Below, piece by piece: positions 11,853 through 19,968 of a DNA stretch of 64,000 nt. The DNA is from Rhodovulum tesquicola. GTDB lineage: Bacteria > Pseudomonadota > Alphaproteobacteria > Rhodobacterales > Rhodobacteraceae. The notes beneath the pieces were generated by a model. The model was not told where the DNA came from. It searched no databases and was given only the letters and a program-made list of their open reading frames with translations. The position numbers and the translations under genes were made by a program. How positions within the stretch are numbered: the stretch's first letter is position 1; each line of letters begins with the position of its first letter. The DNA is taken from NCBI RefSeq assembly GCF_024128855.1, contig NZ_JAMYDV010000005.1, positions 62,001 through 126,000 of the forward strand, written 5' to 3'.

Positions 11853-12314
11853 TCAGGTGCCGCCGGACGCCTCGCCCTCGGCATGGCGGTAGACACCCTG
11901 TTCCTTCAGCGCGTCCACGACCTCGCGCGGCATGTAGCTTTCGTCATGCTTGGCCAGGATCTCATGCGCCACGAACACCCCGTCGATCAGCCGGCCGGTG
12001 CCCACCATGCCCTGGTTCTCGGCGAACAGGTCGGGCAGCACGCCGGTATAGGTGACAGGGACCGCCGCCCCGCCATCGGTCACGGAAAAGCGGATCGTCT
12101 CCCCCTGCCCGCGCTGAAGGCTGCCTTCCTCGACCAGCCCGCCGATGCGGAACACCTCGGTCGGCGCGGGCGGCTCGGCCACGATCTGGCTGGGCGAGCG
12201 GAAGAAATTGATCCCGTCCCGCATGGCATAGCCGATCAGCGCCGTGGAAATACCCAGCGCCACAAAGGCCACCAGGATGATCTGTATCCGTCTTTGCTTC
12301 TTCAGTCCGCGCAT
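11853..12314 (-). CDS. ccmE: Cytochrome c maturation heme chaperone CcmE
   Basis: Periplasmic heme chaperone tethered to the inner membrane, 153 aa. It binds heme covalently and passes it to apocytochrome c. A basic N-terminus (MRGLKKQRR) and one anchor at about residues 11-29 are followed by the OB-fold domain. The heme-binding His is in AKHDESYMP, in the conserved C-terminal block. It lies 12 bases after argC; other ccm genes are not nearby. Confidence 0.95.
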   Translation of the reverse strand: MRGLKKQRRIQIILVAFVALGISTALIGYAMRDGINFFRSPSQIVAEPPAPTEVFRIGGLVEEGSLQRGQGETIRFSVTDGGAAVPVTYTGVLPDLFAENQGMVGTGRLIDGVFVAHEILAKHDESYMPREVVDALKEQGVYRHAEGEASGGT

Positions 12315-12326
12315 CGTCTCACTCCG

Positions 12327-13355
12327 TCAGGGGAAGCACGGCGCCAGCATCAGCCCCGTCTCCTCCGCGATCCCCAGCATCAGGTTCGCGTTCTGCACCG
12401 CCTGCCCCGACGACCCCTTGGTCAGGTTGTCGAGCGCCGCGAACACCACCGCTCTGCCCGGCCGCCGGTCCCCCACCACGCCCAGATGGACGAAGTTCGA
12501 CCCCCGCACATGGCGGGTCGAGGGATGCTCGCCGAAAGGCAGAACCTGGAGGAAGGTCTCACCTTCGTAAGCCCTTGCCAAGGCGGAATGGATGGCCTGC
12601 GGATCACCTTTCAGCCAGCAGGTCGCAAGGATGCCCCGGTTCGCGGGAATCAGGTGCGGCGTGAACTGCACCTCGACCCTGCGCCCGGCCGCCTTGCTGA
12701 ACTCCTGGTCGAACTCGCCCAGATGGCGATGGGTGCCGCCGACCGCATAGGCATGGAACCCCTCGGACAGTTCGGCATGCAGAAGGTTCTCCTTCAGCGC
12801 CCTGCCCGCCCCCGAAACGCCTGCCTTCAGGTCGATCGCGATATCGTCAAGGTCGATCACGCCCGCCCGGATCAGCGGGACCAGCGCATATTGCCCGGCC
12901 GCCGCGTTGCATCCTGTGCCCGCGACCAGCCGGGCGGCGCAAATCTCGTCGCGATAGAACTCGGTCAGCCCATAGACCGCCTCGGCCTGCAATTCGGGCG
13001 CGGCATGGGGCTTGCCATACCATTTCTCGTACGCCGCCGGATCGCGCAGCCGGAAATCCGCCGACAGGTCCACGATCTTCAGGCTACGCGGCAGCGCCCG
13101 GATCACCTCCTGGCTGGTGGCATGGGGCAGCGCGCAAAAGCACAGATCGACCGCGGCGAAGTCGATCTCCTCGATCCGCACAAGATCGGGCAGGTCCAGG
13201 TGACGCAGATGCGGGAACACCGCGGCCATCGGCTGGCCCGCCTTGCGCTCGCCCGACAGCGCCACGATCCGCATGTCGGGATGGGTGGCGATCAGCCGGA
13301 CCAGTTCGGCCCCGGTATAGCCCGAGGCGCCCAGGATGGCGACGGAATGGGTCAT
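12327..13355 (-). CDS. argC: N-acetyl-gamma-glutamyl-phosphate reductase
   Basis: Third enzyme of arginine synthesis, making N-acetylglutamate semialdehyde with NADPH. The 342-aa protein starts [20 protein letters not shown] (Rossmann site GASGYTG). The catalytic Cys is in [14 protein letters not shown], the rhodobacterial form of the usual GCYPT box. [10 protein letters not shown] and the C-terminal [12 protein letters not shown] are also conserved. A longer in-frame start 19 codons upstream is rejected because GGGAG precedes the chosen ATG. Lies between murI and ccmE. Confidence 0.96.
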
Positions 13356-13412
13356 CTTGCGCTCCCCGCTGGTGACGGATGGGGTTCTAGACGCGACGGG
13401 CCACGCCCGCAA

Positions 13413-14225
13413 TCACGCGGCACGGAATTCGATGCGGCGGCGCAGGAATTGCGTGGCCTTGTTCGACACCGCCGCCGGATCGCCCGTGGTCAGGAACATC
13501 GACTCGGTGCCCGGCCCCAGCATCCCGGGATGGCGGCCCAGGTAATCGGCCAGGCTTTCGGCCACCAGATTCGCCTGCGAATAGACCCGCACCTCGGGGC
13601 CCAGCGCGTCCTGAAAGGCGCGCTCCATCAGCGGATAATGCGTGCAGCCCAGGATCGCGGCCTCCGGATGCGGCATCCGCCGTTTCAGCGCCTCGACATG
13701 GGAGCGCACCAGCGCCTCTGCCAGCATCTCGTCGCCCTGCTCGATCGCATCGACCACGCCGCCGCAGGGCTGGGCCTCGACATCGACACCGATGGCACGA
13801 AAGGCCAGTTCCCGCTGGAACGCGCGGCTCGCGACCGTCGCGGGCGTGGCAAACAGCGCCACATGCTTGATCGCCACCTCGCGCGGGGGGGAATTGTCGC
13901 CCCATTGCCGTTCGGTCAGCGCCTCGATCAGCGGGACAAACACACCCAGCACGCGCTTGTCCTTCGGCACCCAGCTTTCCTGCATCCGCCTGAGTGCGGC
14001 GGCCGAGGCCGTGTTGCAGGCCAGGATCACCAGGTCGCAGCCTGCCTCGAACAGCCGGCTCACGCCCGCCGTGGTCAGCCGGTAAACGTCCTCGGCATCG
14101 CGCACCCCGTAGGGCGCATGGGCATTGTCGCCGAAATAGACGAAGGGCACGTCGGGCAGCCGCCGCGCGACGGCATCCAGCACCGTCAACCCCCCAAGAC
14201 CGGAATCGAACACACCCACTGCCAT
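13413..14225 (-). CDS. murI: Glutamate racemase
   Basis: Makes D-glutamate for peptidoglycan, 270 aa. It starts [19 protein letters not shown]. The two catalytic cysteines are in LACNTAS and LGCTHYPLM, with GDNAHAPYG also typical. The start at 14225 follows an AAGAGG site; the upstream in-frame extension (to 14354) lacks family similarity. The 132 bases before it hold GC-rich repeats of GGCGCCCGGG and no gene. Confidence 0.95.
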
Positions 14226-14357
14226 GGCCTGCCTCTTGCGCTGTGCGTGGCGCCCGGGCAGGGCCGCCGGAGGGGCGGCGCCCGGGGCTGTTTTCCCACT
14301 CATAAGTCGAGTTGTGACGGAAATCCATCGCCGCAATGCGCGCGGCTGACCCACCCG

Positions 14358-17300
14358 CTATTCAGCCGCCTGGCACAGCGCCATGCCCCCCGCCCGGAAC
14401 GCGGCCAGCAAGTCCGCGCGCCGTTCCGCCGCCTCGGCCTCGGCCTTCGCCTTGACCGGACCGAAGCCCTTGACCGAAAGCGGCAGTTCCGCCAATGCCA
14501 CCGCGGCCTCAAGACGATCCGGCGTCAGCCCTGCAATCACCTCGGCCATGTCCGCCTCGTAAGTCCGGATCGCCGCCCGCTCGCGCCGCCGCTCGCCCTG
14601 CCAGCCGAACGGGTCCAGCGGCGTGCCCCTAAGCCGCCGCATCCCCGCCAGCAGGCGAAAGACCCGCTCCATCCGCGGGCCATAGCGCCGCTTGGCGGGC
14701 CGCCCGTCCGGCCCCTTGGCGCCAAGGAAGGGCGGCGCCAGCAGATAGCTTATCTCGAAATCGCCCGAAAACTCGGCCCGCGCCCTGGCGGCGGTTTCCA
14801 GATGCAGCCGCGCGACCTCGTATTCGTCCTTGTAGGCAAGCAGCTTGTGATACCCTTTCGCCACCGCCTCCTTCAGGCGCGGATCGGCCACCCGCTCGAC
14901 AAGACGGCGATAGCGGCGCGCCAGTCGGGCCGACTGATAGGCCGCCAGATGCGCCTCGCGCATGGCGATCCTCTCGGCCAGCGTCCGGGGCTGCGCCTCC
15001 GGGGTGGCGATGGCGCGCTCTGCCGCATCGGGGTGCGCCGCCGCCCAGCGCCCGATCTCGAAGGCACGCCGGTTGCCCGCCGCATCGGCACCGTTCAGTT
15101 CGATCGCCCGCAGGATCGCCGCCAGCGACAGGGGCACCAGACCGCGCTGCCAGGCGGCCCCGGTGACGATCATGTTGGCATAGATCGTGTTCCCCATCAG
15201 CCGATGCGCAAGTTCCGTCGAATCAATCAGTTGCAGCAGGTCCTTCAACCGCGCCCGCAAGGCCAGTTCCAGCCGGTCCGAGGGCACGCGGAACCCGGGA
15301 TCGCGGGTAAAGGCGCCGGTCACGATGTCATGGGAATTGACCACCGCGCCCGTGCGCCCCGTGGTCATCAGCCCGATGGTCTTCGCCCCCGCCGTCACCA
15401 CCAGATCGCCGCCGATCACCGCATCGGCCTCGCCCGTGGCCACCCGGATCGCCGAGATATCGCCGGGCCGCTCGGCGATGCGGCAATGGACATGCACAGC
15501 ACCGCCCTTCTGGGCCAGCCCCGCCATCTCCATCATGCCCGCGCCCTTGCCCTCGACATGGGCGGCCATGGCAAGGATCGCGCCGATGGTCACGGCCCCG
15601 GTGCCGCCGACCCCGGTAACGACCATGTTCCACGTCCCCTCGATCGCGGGCAGCACGGGCTCGGGCAGGTCGCCGATCTCGATCTCCCGCGCCTCGCGCC
15701 GCAGCGCCGCGCCCTTCAGCGTGACAAAGCTGGGGCAGAACCCCTTGAGGCAGGAGAAATCCTTGTTGCAGGCCGACTGGTCGATGGCCCGCTTGCGGCC
15801 GAACTCGGTCTCGGCCGGCACGATGGCCACGCAATTCGACTGCACCCCGCAATCGCCGCAGCCCTCGCAGATGTCCGTGTTGATGAACACCCGCGTATCC
15901 GGGTCGGGAAAGGCGCCCTTCTTGCGGCGGCGGCGCTTCTCGGCGGCGCAGGTCTGGATATAGACCAAGGCCGTCACCCCCTCGATCCGGCTCAGCCGCT
16001 CCTGCACCGCCATCAGCTCGGCACGCGGATGCAGCGGCACACCGGGCGGGAAGGCTTTCGGGTCGACCGCCTCCTTCTCGTCATGCACGACCTCGACGCG
16101 GCGCACCCCTGCCGCGATCAGCTCCGCCACGATCTGGCCGGCCGTCAGCCCGCCATCGTTGCCCTGCCCGCCGGTCATGGCGACCGCGTCGTTGTAGAGG
16201 ACCTTGTAGGTGATGTTCACACCCGCCGCGACGGCCGCATGGATCGCCAGCCGCCCCGAATGGTTGTAGGTGCCGTCGCCCAGGTTCTGGAACACATGGC
16301 CGCGGGTCGAGAACGGCGCCTCGCCGATCCAGTTCGCCCCTTCGGCGCCCATATGGGTGTAGCCGGATGTCTCGCGATCCATCCACATCGCCATGATGTG
16401 GCAGCCGATCCCGGCATAGGCGCGCGCGCCCTCGGGCAGCCGGGTCGAGCTGTTATGCGGGCAGCCCGCGCAGAAATAGGGCAGCCGCGCGGCCAGATCC
16501 AGCGCATTGTCCGCCCGCCGCGCCGCGCGGATCCGCTCCAGCGCCGCCACCAGCCCGTCGGACCCGCGCCCCTCCTCGATCAGCACCTCGCCCAGCTTCT
16601 CGGCGATCAGCACCGGGTCCAGCGCAAAGCGGGTCGGGAACAGTTCCTCGTCGCGGTCATTCTTCCAGCCATAGATGCGCCGACCCCGGCGGTTGTGAAA
16701 GATCGCCTCCTTGGCCTGCACCTCGATGAGTTTCCGCTTCTCCTCGACCACCACGATCAGGTCCAGCCCCTCGGCGAACTCGGCGAACCCCTTCATGTCC
16801 AGCGGAAAGGTCTGGCCCACCTTGTAGGTGCTGATCCCCAGCCGCTCGGCCTCACTCTCGTCGATGCCCAGAAGCCCCAGCGCATGCACCAGATCCAGCC
16901 AGTTCTTGCCCGCCGCGACCAGCCCGATCCTGGCCCCCGGCTTGCCCCACACCCGCCGGTCGATCCGGTTGGCATGGGCAAACGCCTCGGCCGCGAAGCG
17001 CTTGTGGTCGATCATGCGCGCTTCCTGCGCGACCCAGTGATCGCCAAGACGGATGTTCAGCCCACCCTCGGGCATCGGGAAATCGGGGGTCACGAAGGCC
17101 ATGCGATCCGGGCGGCCATCTACCACGGAGGTCACCTCGACCGTGTCCTTCATCAGCTTCAGCCCGACCCAGACGCCCGCGAAGCGCGACAGCGCATAGC
17201 CGAAAAGCCCGAAATCGAGGATCTCCTGCACCCCGGCAGGCGACAGCACCGGCATGTAGACATCGACCATCGCCCAGTCCGACTGGTGGCAGGTGGTCGA

Positions 17301-17756
17301 GCTTTCGCCGGTGTGATCGTCCCCCATCGCCATCAGCACCCCGCCATGGGGCGAGGTTCCGGCCATGTTCGCATGCCGCATCACGTCGCCCGAACGGTCC
17401 ACCCCCGGCCCCTTGCCGTACCACAGCCCGAAGACGCCATCGAACCGGCCCTCGCCCCGCAGTTCCGCCTGCTGCGTGCCCCACAGCGCCGTGGCTGCCA
17501 AATCCTCGTTCAGGCCCGGCTGAAAAAGCACATCCGCCGCCTGCAAATCGGCCTTCGCACGTGCCATCGTCATGTCGACGGCACCCAACGGCGAGCCGCG
17601 ATAGCCGGTAACGTAACCGGCGGTGTTCAGCCCCGCCGCCCGGTCGCGCGCCTTCTGCATCAGCATCAGCCGGACCAGCGCCTGGGTGCCGTTCAGCAAC
17701 ACGGGCGATTTCGCCAGATCGTAGCGATCGTGAAGGCTGACATCCTGACGGATCAT
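14358..17756 (-). CDS. Indolepyruvate ferredoxin oxidoreductase, fused single chain
   Basis: Oxidatively decarboxylates indolepyruvate and other aryl pyruvates to aryl-acetyl-CoA, reducing ferredoxin; used in aromatic amino acid breakdown. The 1132-aa chain joins parts that are separate in archaea. The N-terminal pyrimidine-binding part is at about 25-230. The TPP-binding part is at about 430-580 (FCAGCPHNSST, NLGDGTYNHSG). A 4Fe-4S site CEGCGDCGVQSNC is near 635, the gamma domain is at about 715-900 (TGVGGTGAVTIG), and a C-terminal DUF6537 region follows. Divergent from a LysR gene, with a 21-base palindrome on its promoter. Confidence 0.93.
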   Translation of the reverse strand: MIRQDVSLHDRYDLAKSPVLLNGTQALVRLMLMQKARDRAAGLNTAGYVTGYRGSPLGAVDMTMARAKADLQAADVLFQPGLNEDLAATALWGTQQAELRGEGRFDGVFGLWYGKGPGVDRSGDVMRHANMAGTSPHGGVLMAMGDDHTGESSTTCHQSDWAMVDVYMPVLSPAGVQEILDFGLFGYALSRFAGVWVGLKLMKDTVEVTSVVDGRPDRMAFVTPDFPMPEGGLNIRLGDHWVAQEARMIDHKRFAAEAFAHANRIDRRVWGKPGARIGLVAAGKNWLDLVHALGLLGIDESEAERLGISTYKVGQTFPLDMKGFAEFAEGLDLIVVVEEKRKLIEVQAKEAIFHNRRGRRIYGWKNDRDEELFPTRFALDPVLIAEKLGEVLIEEGRGSDGLVAALERIRAARRADNALDLAARLPYFCAGCPHNSSTRLPEGARAYAGIGCHIMAMWMDRETSGYTHMGAEGANWIGEAPFSTRGHVFQNLGDGTYNHSGRLAIHAAVAAGVNITYKVLYNDAVAMTGGQGNDGGLTAGQIVAELIAAGVRRVEVVHDEKEAVDPKAFPPGVPLHPRAELMAVQERLSRIEGVTALVYIQTCAAEKRRRRKKGAFPDPDTRVFINTDICEGCGDCGVQSNCVAIVPAETEFGRKRAIDQSACNKDFSCLKGFCPSFVTLKGAALRREAREIEIGDLPEPVLPAIEGTWNMVVTGVGGTGAVTIGAILAMAAHVEGKGAGMMEMAGLAQKGGAVHVHCRIAERPGDISAIRVATGEADAVIGGDLVVTAGAKTIGLMTTGRTGAVVNSHDIVTGAFTRDPGFRVPSDRLELALRARLKDLLQLIDSTELAHRLMGNTIYANMIVTGAAWQRGLVPLSLAAILRAIELNGADAAGNRRAFEIGRWAAAHPDAAERAIATPEAQPRTLAERIAMREAHLAAYQSARLARRYRRLVERVADPRLKEAVAKGYHKLLAYKDEYEVARLHLETAARARAEFSGDFEISYLLAPPFLGAKGPDGRPAKRRYGPRMERVFRLLAGMRRLRGTPLDPFGWQGERRRERAAIRTYEADMAEVIAGLTPDRLEAAVALAELPLSVKGFGPVKAKAEAEAAERRADLLAAFRAGGMALCQAAE

Positions 17757-17790
17757 GCGTGCCCCTCCCCTGGCGTGCTCCTCGTTATAT

Positions 17791-17811
17791 TAGGTCAAAA
17801 ACCATGACCTA
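17791..17811 (-). promoter_or_regulatory. Perfect 7-7-7 inverted repeat over the ior promoter
   Basis: TAGGTCA at 17791-17797 and TGACCTA at 17805-17811 are exact inverted repeats separated by 7 bases. On the minus strand the repeat lies between and overlaps a -35-like TTGTAG and a -10-like TAATAT spaced 16 bases, ahead of the oxidoreductase gene. This placement suits a repressor site. It lies about 100 bases from the LysR start, so the LysR protein is one candidate to bind it. Confidence 0.55.
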
Positions 17812-17907: not shown

Positions 17908-18816
17908 ATGATGGACTGGGACAAGCTTCGGATCTTCCACGCGGTCGCCGACGCGGGCAGCCTCACCCATGCCGGCGAGACGCTGCACCTGTCGCAATCC
18001 GCCGTCAGCCGCCAGATCCGCGCGCTCGAGGACAGTCTCGGCTCGACCCTGTTCCACCGCCATGCGCGGGGGTTGATCCTGACCGAGCAGGGCGAATTGC
18101 TGTTCGACGCCACCACCGCGATTAGCAAGCGGCTCGAGGCCGCCGTCGCCCGCATCCGCGACAGCGTCGAAGAGGTCTTCGGCGAATTGCGCGTGACCAC
18201 CACCACCGGCTTCGGCTCGCTCTGGCTGGCCAAGCGCCTGCCCATCCTCTACGAGCGCTACCCAGAGTTGCGCATCGACCTGATGCTGTCCGAACAGGTG
18301 CTCGACCTGCCGATGCGCGAGGCCGATGTCGCCATCCGCATGAAGGAGCCCAGCCAGGCCGACCTGATCCGCCTGCGCCTGATGGGCGTGCGGATGCAGC
18401 TTTATGCGGTGCAACCCTATCTCGATGCCCAAGGCACACCCACCAGCCTCGACGATCTCGGCGAGCACCGGCTGATCTGCCAGAACACCACCACAGCCCA
18501 GGTCAGCGCCGGTGCGCGGCTGGTTCAGGAGTTGATGACCCACCGGATCCGTTCCACCCTGACGGTGAACAACTATTTCGGCGTGCTCCAGGCGGTGCTG
18601 AACGGGCTGGGGATCGGGGTTCTGCCCGATTACGTGACCGAGGATCACCCGCAGCTTGTCCGGGTGCTTCCCAATATCGAATCGAACGAGGTTCCGGTCT
18701 TCCTGGCCTATCCCGAGGAATTGCGCGCCTCCCGCAGGATCGCGGCCTTCCGCGAGTTCATCACAGAACAGATCACCGAAAAGCGCCAGCGCGAGAAAGA
18801 CACGTCAGGATTGTGA
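17908..18816 (+). CDS. LysR-family transcriptional regulator
   Basis: DNA-binding regulator of 302 aa. The winged helix-turn-helix is N-terminal (LRIFHAVADAGSLTHAGETL, then LSQSAVSRQIRALE), and the effector-binding domain runs from about residue 90. It starts at ATG 17908 (or the next codon) behind an AGGA site; a longer in-frame reading from 17845 lacks family similarity. Divergent from the indolepyruvate oxidoreductase gene, its most likely target. Confidence 0.88.
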   Translation: MMDWDKLRIFHAVADAGSLTHAGETLHLSQSAVSRQIRALEDSLGSTLFHRHARGLILTEQGELLFDATTAISKRLEAAVARIRDSVEEVFGELRVTTTTGFGSLWLAKRLPILYERYPELRIDLMLSEQVLDLPMREADVAIRMKEPSQADLIRLRLMGVRMQLYAVQPYLDAQGTPTSLDDLGEHRLICQNTTTAQVSAGARLVQELMTHRIRSTLTVNNYFGVLQAVLNGLGIGVLPDYVTEDHPQLVRVLPNIESNEVPVFLAYPEELRASRRIAAFREFITEQITEKRQREKDTSGL

Positions 18817-18865: not shown

Positions 18866-18893
18866 CTTGAACCTGTGCCTGAGCGTCCATAAT
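18866..18893 (+). promoter_or_regulatory. Candidate heat-shock-sigma-like promoter for a small RNA
   Basis: CTTGAA (18866-18871), then 15 bases, then CCATAAT (18887-18893). This resembles the RpoH-type pattern CTTGAA...CCCATNT more than a housekeeping one. It sits just before the hairpin-terminator pair that ends at 18973. Confidence 0.45.
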
Positions 18894-18897
18894 TGCT

Positions 18898-18973
18898 TTG
18901 ACGAAGGCGGAACTTTGCTTTCGTCTTTACCTCCCTGTTGGACTTGGGCCGAGCTTTCGCTCGGCCTTTTTTT
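18898..18973 (+). ncRNA. Candidate small RNA, about 75 nt
   Basis: Non-coding stretch with a promoter-like element just upstream. A first stem GACGAAGGC / GCTTTCGTC (18900-18925, one G-U pair, 8-base loop) is followed by a single-stranded linker holding CCTCCC (an anti-Shine-Dalgarno motif, about 18930-18935) and then a strong terminator. The layout resembles the RpoH-controlled CCUCC-type small RNAs of Rhodobacter sphaeroides; identity with any named RNA is not shown. No credible ORF fits inside. Confidence 0.5.
18947..18973 (+). terminator. Rho-independent terminator
   Basis: Perfect 8-bp stem GGCCGAGC / GCTCGGCC with loop TTTC, followed by seven T. The clearest intrinsic terminator in the window; it ends the candidate small RNA and any lysR read-through. 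Confidence 0.9.
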
Positions 18974-19115
18974 CTGCCCGGACACGATCTGCCCGCAATC
19001 GGGGCAGTTCCTGCACCGGATTGAACAGTCCTTCGGCAGCACGCGAAGATTCTGGCGCGGGATGGCAGCCCCGCCACCCCGTCAGGACGAAATCGCAACC
19101 CGACGATTCAGGGCG

Positions 19116-19170: not shown

Positions 19171-19968
19171 ATGCGAATCCGTGCCTTCGCCCTTGCCCTT
19201 GCCGCGCTCTGCCTGGCCGAACCGGCGCTTTCCACGCCCTGCGGGGACAGCGCCGCGGGCTTCGACGCCTGGAAACGCGACTTCGCCCGCGAAGCCGCCA
19301 GCGCGGGCGTCGGCCAGCGCGGGCTGGCGGCGCTGGCCGCAACCCAATACGCCCAGGCCACGATCAATGCCGACCGCAACCAGCGCAGCTTCCGCCTCAG
19401 CTATCCCGAGTTCTGCCAGAAGCGCGGCTGCGACGTGATCGCCCAGCAGGGCCGCAGCCGCAAGGCGCAGACCCCCGCCTTCTACGCCTCGCTCGAACGG
19501 GCCTATGGCGTGCCTTCAGGGCTCCTGATCGCGATTCACGGGATGGAGACCGCCTTCGGCCGCTTCATGGGCAATGCCAACGTGCTGAACGCCACCGCGA
19601 CGCTCGCCTATGATTGCCGCAGGCCGGATTTCTTCCGCCCCCACCTGATCGGCGCGCTCAGGATGATCGACCGGGGCATGATGTCGCCCGGCGCCATCGG
19701 CGCGATGCATGGCGAGCTGGGCCATACCCAGTTCCTGCCCGGCAACGCCCTGACTTATGGCCAGGACGGCAATGGCGACGGCCGGACCGACCTGACGGAC
19801 ATGGCCGACGCGCTGGCCTCCACCGCGAATTTCCTTCGGCAAAAGGGCTGGCGCCCCGGCGAGTCCTACCAGCCCGGCAGCCACAATTTCGAGGTGCTCA
19901 AGCAATGGAACGCCGCGGGCGTCTACCAGCGCGCGCTGGCCGAAATCGGGGCGCGGATCGACGGCTGA
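19171..19968 (+). CDS. Lytic murein transglycosylase (MltB / SLT_2 family)
   Basis: Periplasmic enzyme cleaving MurNAc-GlcNAc bonds with 1,6-anhydro product. The 265-aa protein has a signal peptide of about 20 residues (ALALAALCLAEPALS), with no lipobox, so it is soluble rather than a lipoprotein. The catalytic Glu is in IAIHGMETAFGRFMGN, and the substrate-groove motif GELGHTQFLPGNALTYG is present. The family's C-terminal peptidoglycan-binding domain is absent. A GAGGAAAT ribosome site sets the start. Confidence 0.9.
   Translation: MRIRAFALALAALCLAEPALSTPCGDSAAGFDAWKRDFAREAASAGVGQRGLAALAATQYAQATINADRNQRSFRLSYPEFCQKRGCDVIAQQGRSRKAQTPAFYASLERAYGVPSGLLIAIHGMETAFGRFMGNANVLNATATLAYDCRRPDFFRPHLIGALRMIDRGMMSPGAIGAMHGELGHTQFLPGNALTYGQDGNGDGRTDLTDMADALASTANFLRQKGWRPGESYQPGSHNFEVLKQWNAAGVYQRALAEIGARIDG

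Follow-up and report, generated by a model that had tools for sequence, protein, structure and literature searches.

The described small RNAs most comparable to the one analysed here come from two groups of Alphaproteobacteria. SorY of Rhodobacter sphaeroides has been described as a directly transcribed, Hfq-binding small RNA in the RpoE/RpoHI/RpoHII network, with a malate transporter as its target (PMC8307010). Its published 5' end lies at 1,632,642 (PMC6238624), and an effect on the stability of takP mRNA has been reported (PMC6238624, PMC9670543). SorX of the same organism arises through RNase E cleavage of an mRNA 3' UTR (PMC6238624), and CcsR1-4 are four homologous RNAs co-transcribed with ccaF1 in the same sigma-factor network (PMC8307010). 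In rhizobia and their relatives, the corresponding literature deals with AbcR. The gene order in Agrobacterium tumefaciens is given as trxB, vtlR, abcR1, abcR2 (PMC7486931), AbcR1 of Sinorhizobium meliloti is reported to require LsrB and AbcR2 to require RpoH1 (PMC8844928), and motif M1 of AbcR is CUCCCA, located in the first hairpin (PMC5461406). As described for A. tumefaciens and S. meliloti, AbcR1 and AbcR2 occupy the same address downstream of lsrB.

The window, a stretch of 64,000 nucleotides of Rhodovulum tesquicola DNA, harbors a candidate small RNA locus with the following features:

17911-18816, + strand: lysR, orthologue of lsrB/vtlR, likely start MDWDKL (Pfam HTH_1 and LysR_substrate; PDB match)
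18866-18871, + strand: RpoH-like -35 element CTTGAA (conserved in relatives)
18887-18892, + strand: -10 element CCATAA, separated from the -35 element by a 15-nt spacer (conserved in relatives)
18900-18973, + strand: predicted transcript of about 74 nt, putative SorY orthologue (Rfam RF02651 and model R1; 5' end inferred, 18899-18901)
18900-18925, + strand: hairpin 1, 11 bp in the MFE structure (sequence varying between genera, shape kept)
18929-18945, + strand: conserved core ACCTCCCTGTTGGACTT, anti-Shine-Dalgarno seed (identical in 16 Rhodovulum sequences)
18930-18935, + strand: CCTCCC motif within the core
18946-18973, + strand: intrinsic terminator GGGCCGAGC-TTTC-GCTCGGCCT plus T run (terminator scan and fold)
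18946-18967 and 18967-18973, + strand: terminator stem and seven T
19171-19968, + strand: mltB-like lytic transglycosylase (Pfam SLT_2), a neighbour not generally linked to the RNA

Identity of the RNA and its promoter-like elements

The RNA at 18900-18973 is probably an orthologue of SorY and, as such, a trans-acting stress RNA; a probability of about 0.8 is assigned to this reading. The identification is supported by sequence, promoter-like elements and synteny, and with it the proposal of the sequence-only reading that an RpoH-type stress RNA of the kind found in Rhodobacter is encoded here. The SorY model RF02651 matched 18900-18974 with 58.5 bits (E 2.2e-11), below the curated cut-off of 111 bits. 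Among 248 genomes of the family, 233 were matched by this model (E <=0.001) and a single one (G090) exceeded the cut-off, so that the RNA is not filed in RF02651 as curated. G090 can be equated with R. sphaeroides 2.4.1, since its SorY match start (1,632,645) coincides with the published 5' end (1,632,642). Considering the 233 matching genomes and the single one that passes, the threshold of 111 bits looks very narrow. With looser matching, an RNA of the SorY type is found in most sampled genera of the family, hidden by the Rfam cut-off, and the stress RNA of R. sphaeroides is now extended to Rhodovulum. At gathering score, Rfam gave no match in the whole window and none in 20 lsrB loci; among 12 further sources, the SorY and SorX loci of R. 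sphaeroides were the only ones matched.

BLAST detected the RNA in 32 of 61 genomes, namely in all 16 of the genus (77-104 bits), in 16 of 21 others of the family and in none of 24 from other families. A model (R1), built from the 16 Rhodovulum sequences only and therefore including the window RNA as a training member, scored the RNA itself with 96.1 bits and gave two further matches in the 64-kb window (E 0.58 and 0.84). SorY and the window RNA have in common the core UACCUCCCUGUUGGACUUGGGCCGAGC, the terminator, promoter elements of the CTTGAA type and the order lsrB-sRNA-purL. They differ in sequence and length of hairpin 1 and in the mltB gene, which is inserted before purL in the window.

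Two further Rfam families matched the same RNA as well. SorX (RF02784) reached 42.9 bits (E 2.7e-9; cut-off 46.6) and MmgR/suhB (RF00519) 34.4 bits (E 1.4e-5; cut-off 41). Membership in SorX was rejected because of the score and because the upstream gene is lsrB; membership in MmgR/alphar8 was rejected because of the score. SorX shares the core and the terminator design, but its source is the 3' UTR of an OmpR-like gene, from which it is released by processing, whereas the window RNA follows lsrB. The MmgR/alphar8/suhB RNAs and SisA-D of Caulobacter likewise carry CCUCCCU in an unpaired segment ahead of the terminator, but are encoded at loci other than lsrB. LysR is not mentioned in the main text of the paper on SisA-D (PMC12559287).

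The R. tesquicola genome contains one strong match to the RNA and one weak match elsewhere, as opposed to four copies of CcsR. CcsR1-4 also carry an anti-Shine-Dalgarno motif. The sequence-only reading had set them as the comparison; they were rejected, since lysR instead of ccaF1 is found upstream and the RNA is single. The second RNA of the genome (TCTTCCTCCCTGATGGACTGGGCCGCATCC, locus L098, 1501-1579, corresponding to G000:C3:70368-70446) has the core UCUUCCUCCCUGAUGG. By eye it resembles the MmgR family, and it scores below every Rfam cut-off. RNAs of this type were matched by R1 (E <=0.001) in 11 of the 15 other Rhodovulum genomes; the one at locus L100 differs in sequence.

All four elements originally claimed for 18866-18973, i.e. 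an RpoH-like promoter, a first stem-loop, CCTCCC and a terminator with seven T, are present. CTTGAA and CCATAA agree with the RpoH consensus. The promoter search was scored against the window's own hexamers (CTTGAA-N15-CCATAA), and the score of 12/12 for the site itself is thus given by construction. No other site in the 64 kb reached 11/12 or more on either strand, and three reached 10/12. In the family, 56 distinct loci were compared, obtained from the 30 best BLAST places and the 30 best SorY-model places minus four repeats from the same genome (16 from Rhodovulum and 40 others, best-scoring matches only). A score of at least 9/12 was obtained in 16/16 Rhodovulum loci (shuffles 7.8%) and 29/40 other family loci (shuffles 8.8%), and a score of at least 10/12 in 13/16 (shuffles 0.6%) and 15/40 (shuffles 1.1%), respectively. 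In R. sphaeroides, a count by hand places the published SorY 5' end at the ninth base downstream of CCCTAA; the same offset leads to 18901 in the window. In PMC8307010, RpoH-type consensus sequences are referred to as known.

The promoter-like hexamers bear on the question of whether the RNA arises mainly by processing of the lysR 3' UTR, as SorX does from its OmpR-like gene, the hexamers being secondary. Such an origin is unlikely. It would fit the SorX precedent of an RNase E cut from an mRNA 3' UTR (PMC6238624), the short distance between lsrB and RNA in all 53 linked loci (see below) and the terminator scan, which found no such site on the + strand from the lysR stop (18816) up to 18946. 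Against it, in 14 of 16 Rhodovulum loci a near-constant distance of 63-65 nt separates the hexamers from the core (in L011 and L022 the best-scoring site is elsewhere), and SorY of R. sphaeroides is described as having its own promoter and being unprocessed (PMC6238624, PMC8307010). Even with an RNA of its own promoter as the preferred reading, lysR read-through would end at the same terminator, so that a second, 3'-UTR-derived supply is possible.

The predicted 74-nt RNA folds with -33.9 kcal/mol compared to -18.3 (sd 2.9) for shuffled sequences (z -5.45), and none of 200 shuffles was as stable. A hairpin of at least 6 bp is located 5' of the core in 55 of 56 loci. Covariation in hairpin 1 is weak within the genus, one slid control being equally high, and in other families hairpin covariation was not above shuffles. 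The CCTCCC motif, termed exposed in the sequence-only reading, is partly rather than fully so: in the window RNA the unpaired probability is 0.33-0.75 over CCUCCC, approximately 1.0 over UGUU and 0.05-0.06 over the GG following it. A strict test on the MFE structure (at least 5/6 of CCUCCC unpaired) singled out 3 of 56 homologues only. The absence of an ORF holds in that the region has no gene of its own, although mechanical TTG-started frames cross it, one of which is the mltB frame extended upstream.

The terminator at 18946 is the first such site found on the + strand after lysR, whose transcripts it would end, and the locus could be regarded as no more than a lysR terminator of the intrinsic type, preceded by a chance hairpin and without function in trans. 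A loose terminator scan, which yielded as many sites as shuffles (2 compared to 1.9 expected), agrees with this, and the weight of the terminator therefore rests on its conservation. However, the core is identical in all 16 Rhodovulum sequences, CCTCCCTG is invariant across 17 other families (picked by a pattern that contains CCTCCCTG), and the upstream hexamers are conserved. Since a terminator needs neither core nor CCTCCCTG, a terminator-only locus is very unlikely. A lack of conservation beyond the terminator had been named beforehand as evidence against the RNA; core and promoter-like hexamers are conserved and the shape of hairpin 1 is kept, so that this objection does not apply.

Gene neighbourhood and the LsrB-type regulator

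The SorY locus of R. sphaeroides comprises ior (reverse), lysR, SorY and purL. The window shows the same order with mltB in addition. An lsrB-type lysR is located upstream in 53 of the 56 family loci, with 115-285 nt between the end of the match and the core. The three loci without it are L035 and L036, for which only about 660 nt of contig are present upstream, and L056. The mltB gene lies inside the 3-kb locus in 5/16 Rhodovulum and 1/40 other family loci. Of the placement between lysR and a transglycosylase gene, on which the sequence-only reading was headed, the lysR link thus stands, and the transglycosylase is incidental. The same counts argue against the RNA being a cis-acting leader or attenuator of mltB. 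That it ends some 200 nt ahead of mltB, and in the orientation of that gene, would suit such a role, but the gene is rarely in the locus and lsrB nearly always, which makes a leader highly improbable compared to a SorY-type RNA linked to lsrB. A 1974-aa open frame at 11883-17807, antisense to the ior gene, is probably mechanical in this GC-rich DNA.

The closest solved structure to the LysR protein is 9hh1_A (E 2e-70; next 4e-28 in the PDB search), deposited as A. tumefaciens LsrB (PMC11975290). NCBIfam gave the protein no name, the best 25 of 53 matches all being below the cut-off. An LsrB-like match (E <=1e-40) was found in 83 of 142 genomes of the class, mostly one in each. The LsrB cysteines C144, C236, C244 and C273 correspond to V, V, V and A in the window protein, and the thiol switch known from LsrB therefore cannot operate here in its described form. 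None of the 53 family LysR proteins has a cysteine at the C144 or C273 place (one unread at C273). In 28 other families, a cysteine was found at the C144 place in 3 of 27 readable proteins and at the C273 place in 0 of 25. A loss of the redox cysteines peculiar to Rhodobacteraceae was considered and dropped, since other families are without them as well.

Predicted targets and mode of action

On the preferred reading, heat or oxidative stress would cause RpoH to start transcription at about 18900, and the RNA would probably act together with Hfq bound to its U-rich end. The core (CCUCCCUGUUGG) may pair with mRNAs that encode carboxylate uptake proteins (TRAP/TTT binding proteins), at their Shine-Dalgarno sequences. 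Pairing would block translation, and less carbon would flow into the TCA cycle.

As a pairing control, nine DctP genes of R. sphaeroides were included, among which takP was identified by 2hzk (E 1e-198). Among 108 Shine-Dalgarno-like sites in 11 R. sphaeroides loci, takP formed the strongest duplex with the core (-27.0 kcal/mol; mean -18.7), followed by another DctP gene (-26.6 kcal/mol). The perfect complement CAACAGGGAGG occurs 35 times in the 16 Rhodovulum genomes; 16 of these occurrences are the RNA itself, 16 are located at a plausible start and 3 inside ORFs. When the RNA itself was left out, counting by eye gave 19 for the CAA form, 7 and 6 for ACA and AAC of equal composition, and 22 for AAA. 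Since AAACAGGGAGG is as common as CAACAGGGAGG (22 compared to 19), the enrichment may reflect A-rich ribosome-binding sites.

In the R. tesquicola genome, tctC (PF03401) has the only Shine-Dalgarno site with a perfect 11-mer complement, extending to 13 bp when read on. Its duplex has -28.6; the means are -18.2 for 27 GGAGG-ATG sites in the window and -21.5 for 13 tctC homologues (p 0.002, with relatives that are not independent and small duplex samples). Among window bins in which the RNA itself takes no part, values down to -28.0 occur, close to that of tctC. As a target throughout the genus tctC was rejected, its site AACAGGGAGG being kept in 2 of 13 homologues (its own and one other). Among the 10 proteins behind complement sites that were scanned with Pfam, tctC included, are DctP, SoxYZ, sulphur transport and molybdopterin enzymes. 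No single conserved target is found among them. Four Rhodovulum genomes (G000:C13:39957 and 39995; also G004:C17, G006:C2 and G007:C28) share a pair of sequences, CACCAGGGAGG and ACCCAGGGAGG, with a spacing of 37-38 nt.

The lsrB address in other families and the relation to AbcR

The RNA is ordinary as a small RNA; its address is unusually conserved. Apart from the window's own locus, the 30 best-scoring lsrB loci represent the family once and 28 other families once each, and these 29 were fetched. In their 108.8 kb, R1 gave 22 matches (E <=1), every one of them 3' of lsrB and in its orientation; the family locus accounts for one, and 19 of the 28 other-family loci for the remaining 21. A rule combining pattern and terminator detected the module in 17 of the 28. 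From these 17 loci a second model (R2) was built, which is nearly a sequence profile (3 pairs). In the window, R2 (E <=10) matched once, at 18929-18973 (E 0.0013), covering the 3' half only. Applied to 29 sources, it matched all 18 from the family (15 SorY-type loci, SorY and SorX of R. sphaeroides and the second RNA of R. tesquicola). Among the 11 non-family sources, L108, L111, L123, L132 and, weakly, L133 were matched, and no match was obtained in L118, L126, L128, L130, L131 and L135.

By any of the three tests, 23 of the 28 other families examined have the module behind their lsrB orthologue, two of them weakly (L131 by R1 alone, E 0.005; L133 with E 0.14 for R1 and 0.09 for R2). None of the three tests found it in L118, L126, L128, L130 and L135. 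In E-value mode, Rfam agreed, with SorX, SorY or MmgR matches 3' of lsrB in 16 of 17 loci (E <=5, some weak). Of the 17 pattern loci, 14 have CTCCCA in the 45 nt preceding the core, and in 13 it is part of GTCTCCCAGACGT, a short hairpin. Judged by these searches, the pairing of lsrB with a small RNA at this site is putatively conserved in much of the class.

AbcR1/AbcR2 (alphar15, RF02345) have in common with the window RNA the address downstream of LsrB/VtlR and an anti-Shine-Dalgarno motif, and they are reported to target transporters, as proposed here for the SorY-type RNA (PMC8844928, PMC7486931, PMC3712013). In contrast to AbcR, the window RNA lacks the CUCCCA hairpin-loop motif, its hairpin loop being AACU, and trxB, described upstream in A. 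tumefaciens, is not found upstream in the window. A thioredoxin-reductase motif is present upstream of lsrB in 24 of the 28 other-family loci. SorY and AbcR2 thus have the same address and the same class of targets, and probably both respond to RpoH.

The ar15 model RF02345 did not match the region (E <=10) and, with strict filters, gave no match in the R. tesquicola genome and in none of 142 genomes of the class. With laxer filters, 40 genomes chosen from the 83 with LsrB, among which rhizobia are perhaps unsampled, gave none over the cut-off and none at lsrB. The two best ar15 places were rejected as AbcR, as Rfam reports MmgR RNAs there. Two lower-scoring matches of the MmgR clan are omitted by Rfam at these places, which suggests that ar15 and suhB belong to one clan. 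RF02346 was rejected as an AbcR model, since it represents ar35. SorX and the second RNA of R. tesquicola show that the module is not confined to lsrB loci, and the argument for a kinship with AbcR is therefore carried by position.

It is conceivable, though somewhat doubtful, that SorY and AbcR descend from one small RNA downstream of lsrB in early Alphaproteobacteria. The blocking of transporter mRNAs under stress would have been kept and the command changed, to RpoH in Rhodobacteraceae (and for AbcR2) and to redox-sensing LsrB for AbcR1 in rhizobia. The thiol switch would then be a later rhizobial addition and not ancestral, C144 and C273 being missing from LsrB in nearly all families read. 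In the literature searched, judged from the listings, no relevant paper joined SorY with AbcR, LsrB or MmgR; none was found for SorX with AbcR or for the core sequence as letters. One review has SorY in the text and MmgR in a reference only. The locus joins two literatures, that on SorY in phototrophs and that on LsrB/VtlR-AbcR in rhizobia, Agrobacterium and Brucella. If it is ancestral, target rules and regulator swaps could be compared across the whole class at one syntenic site. Extra R1 matches are located downstream of lsrB in L018 (1316-1396) and L110 (2612-3133) and recall the tandem of AbcR1 and AbcR2.
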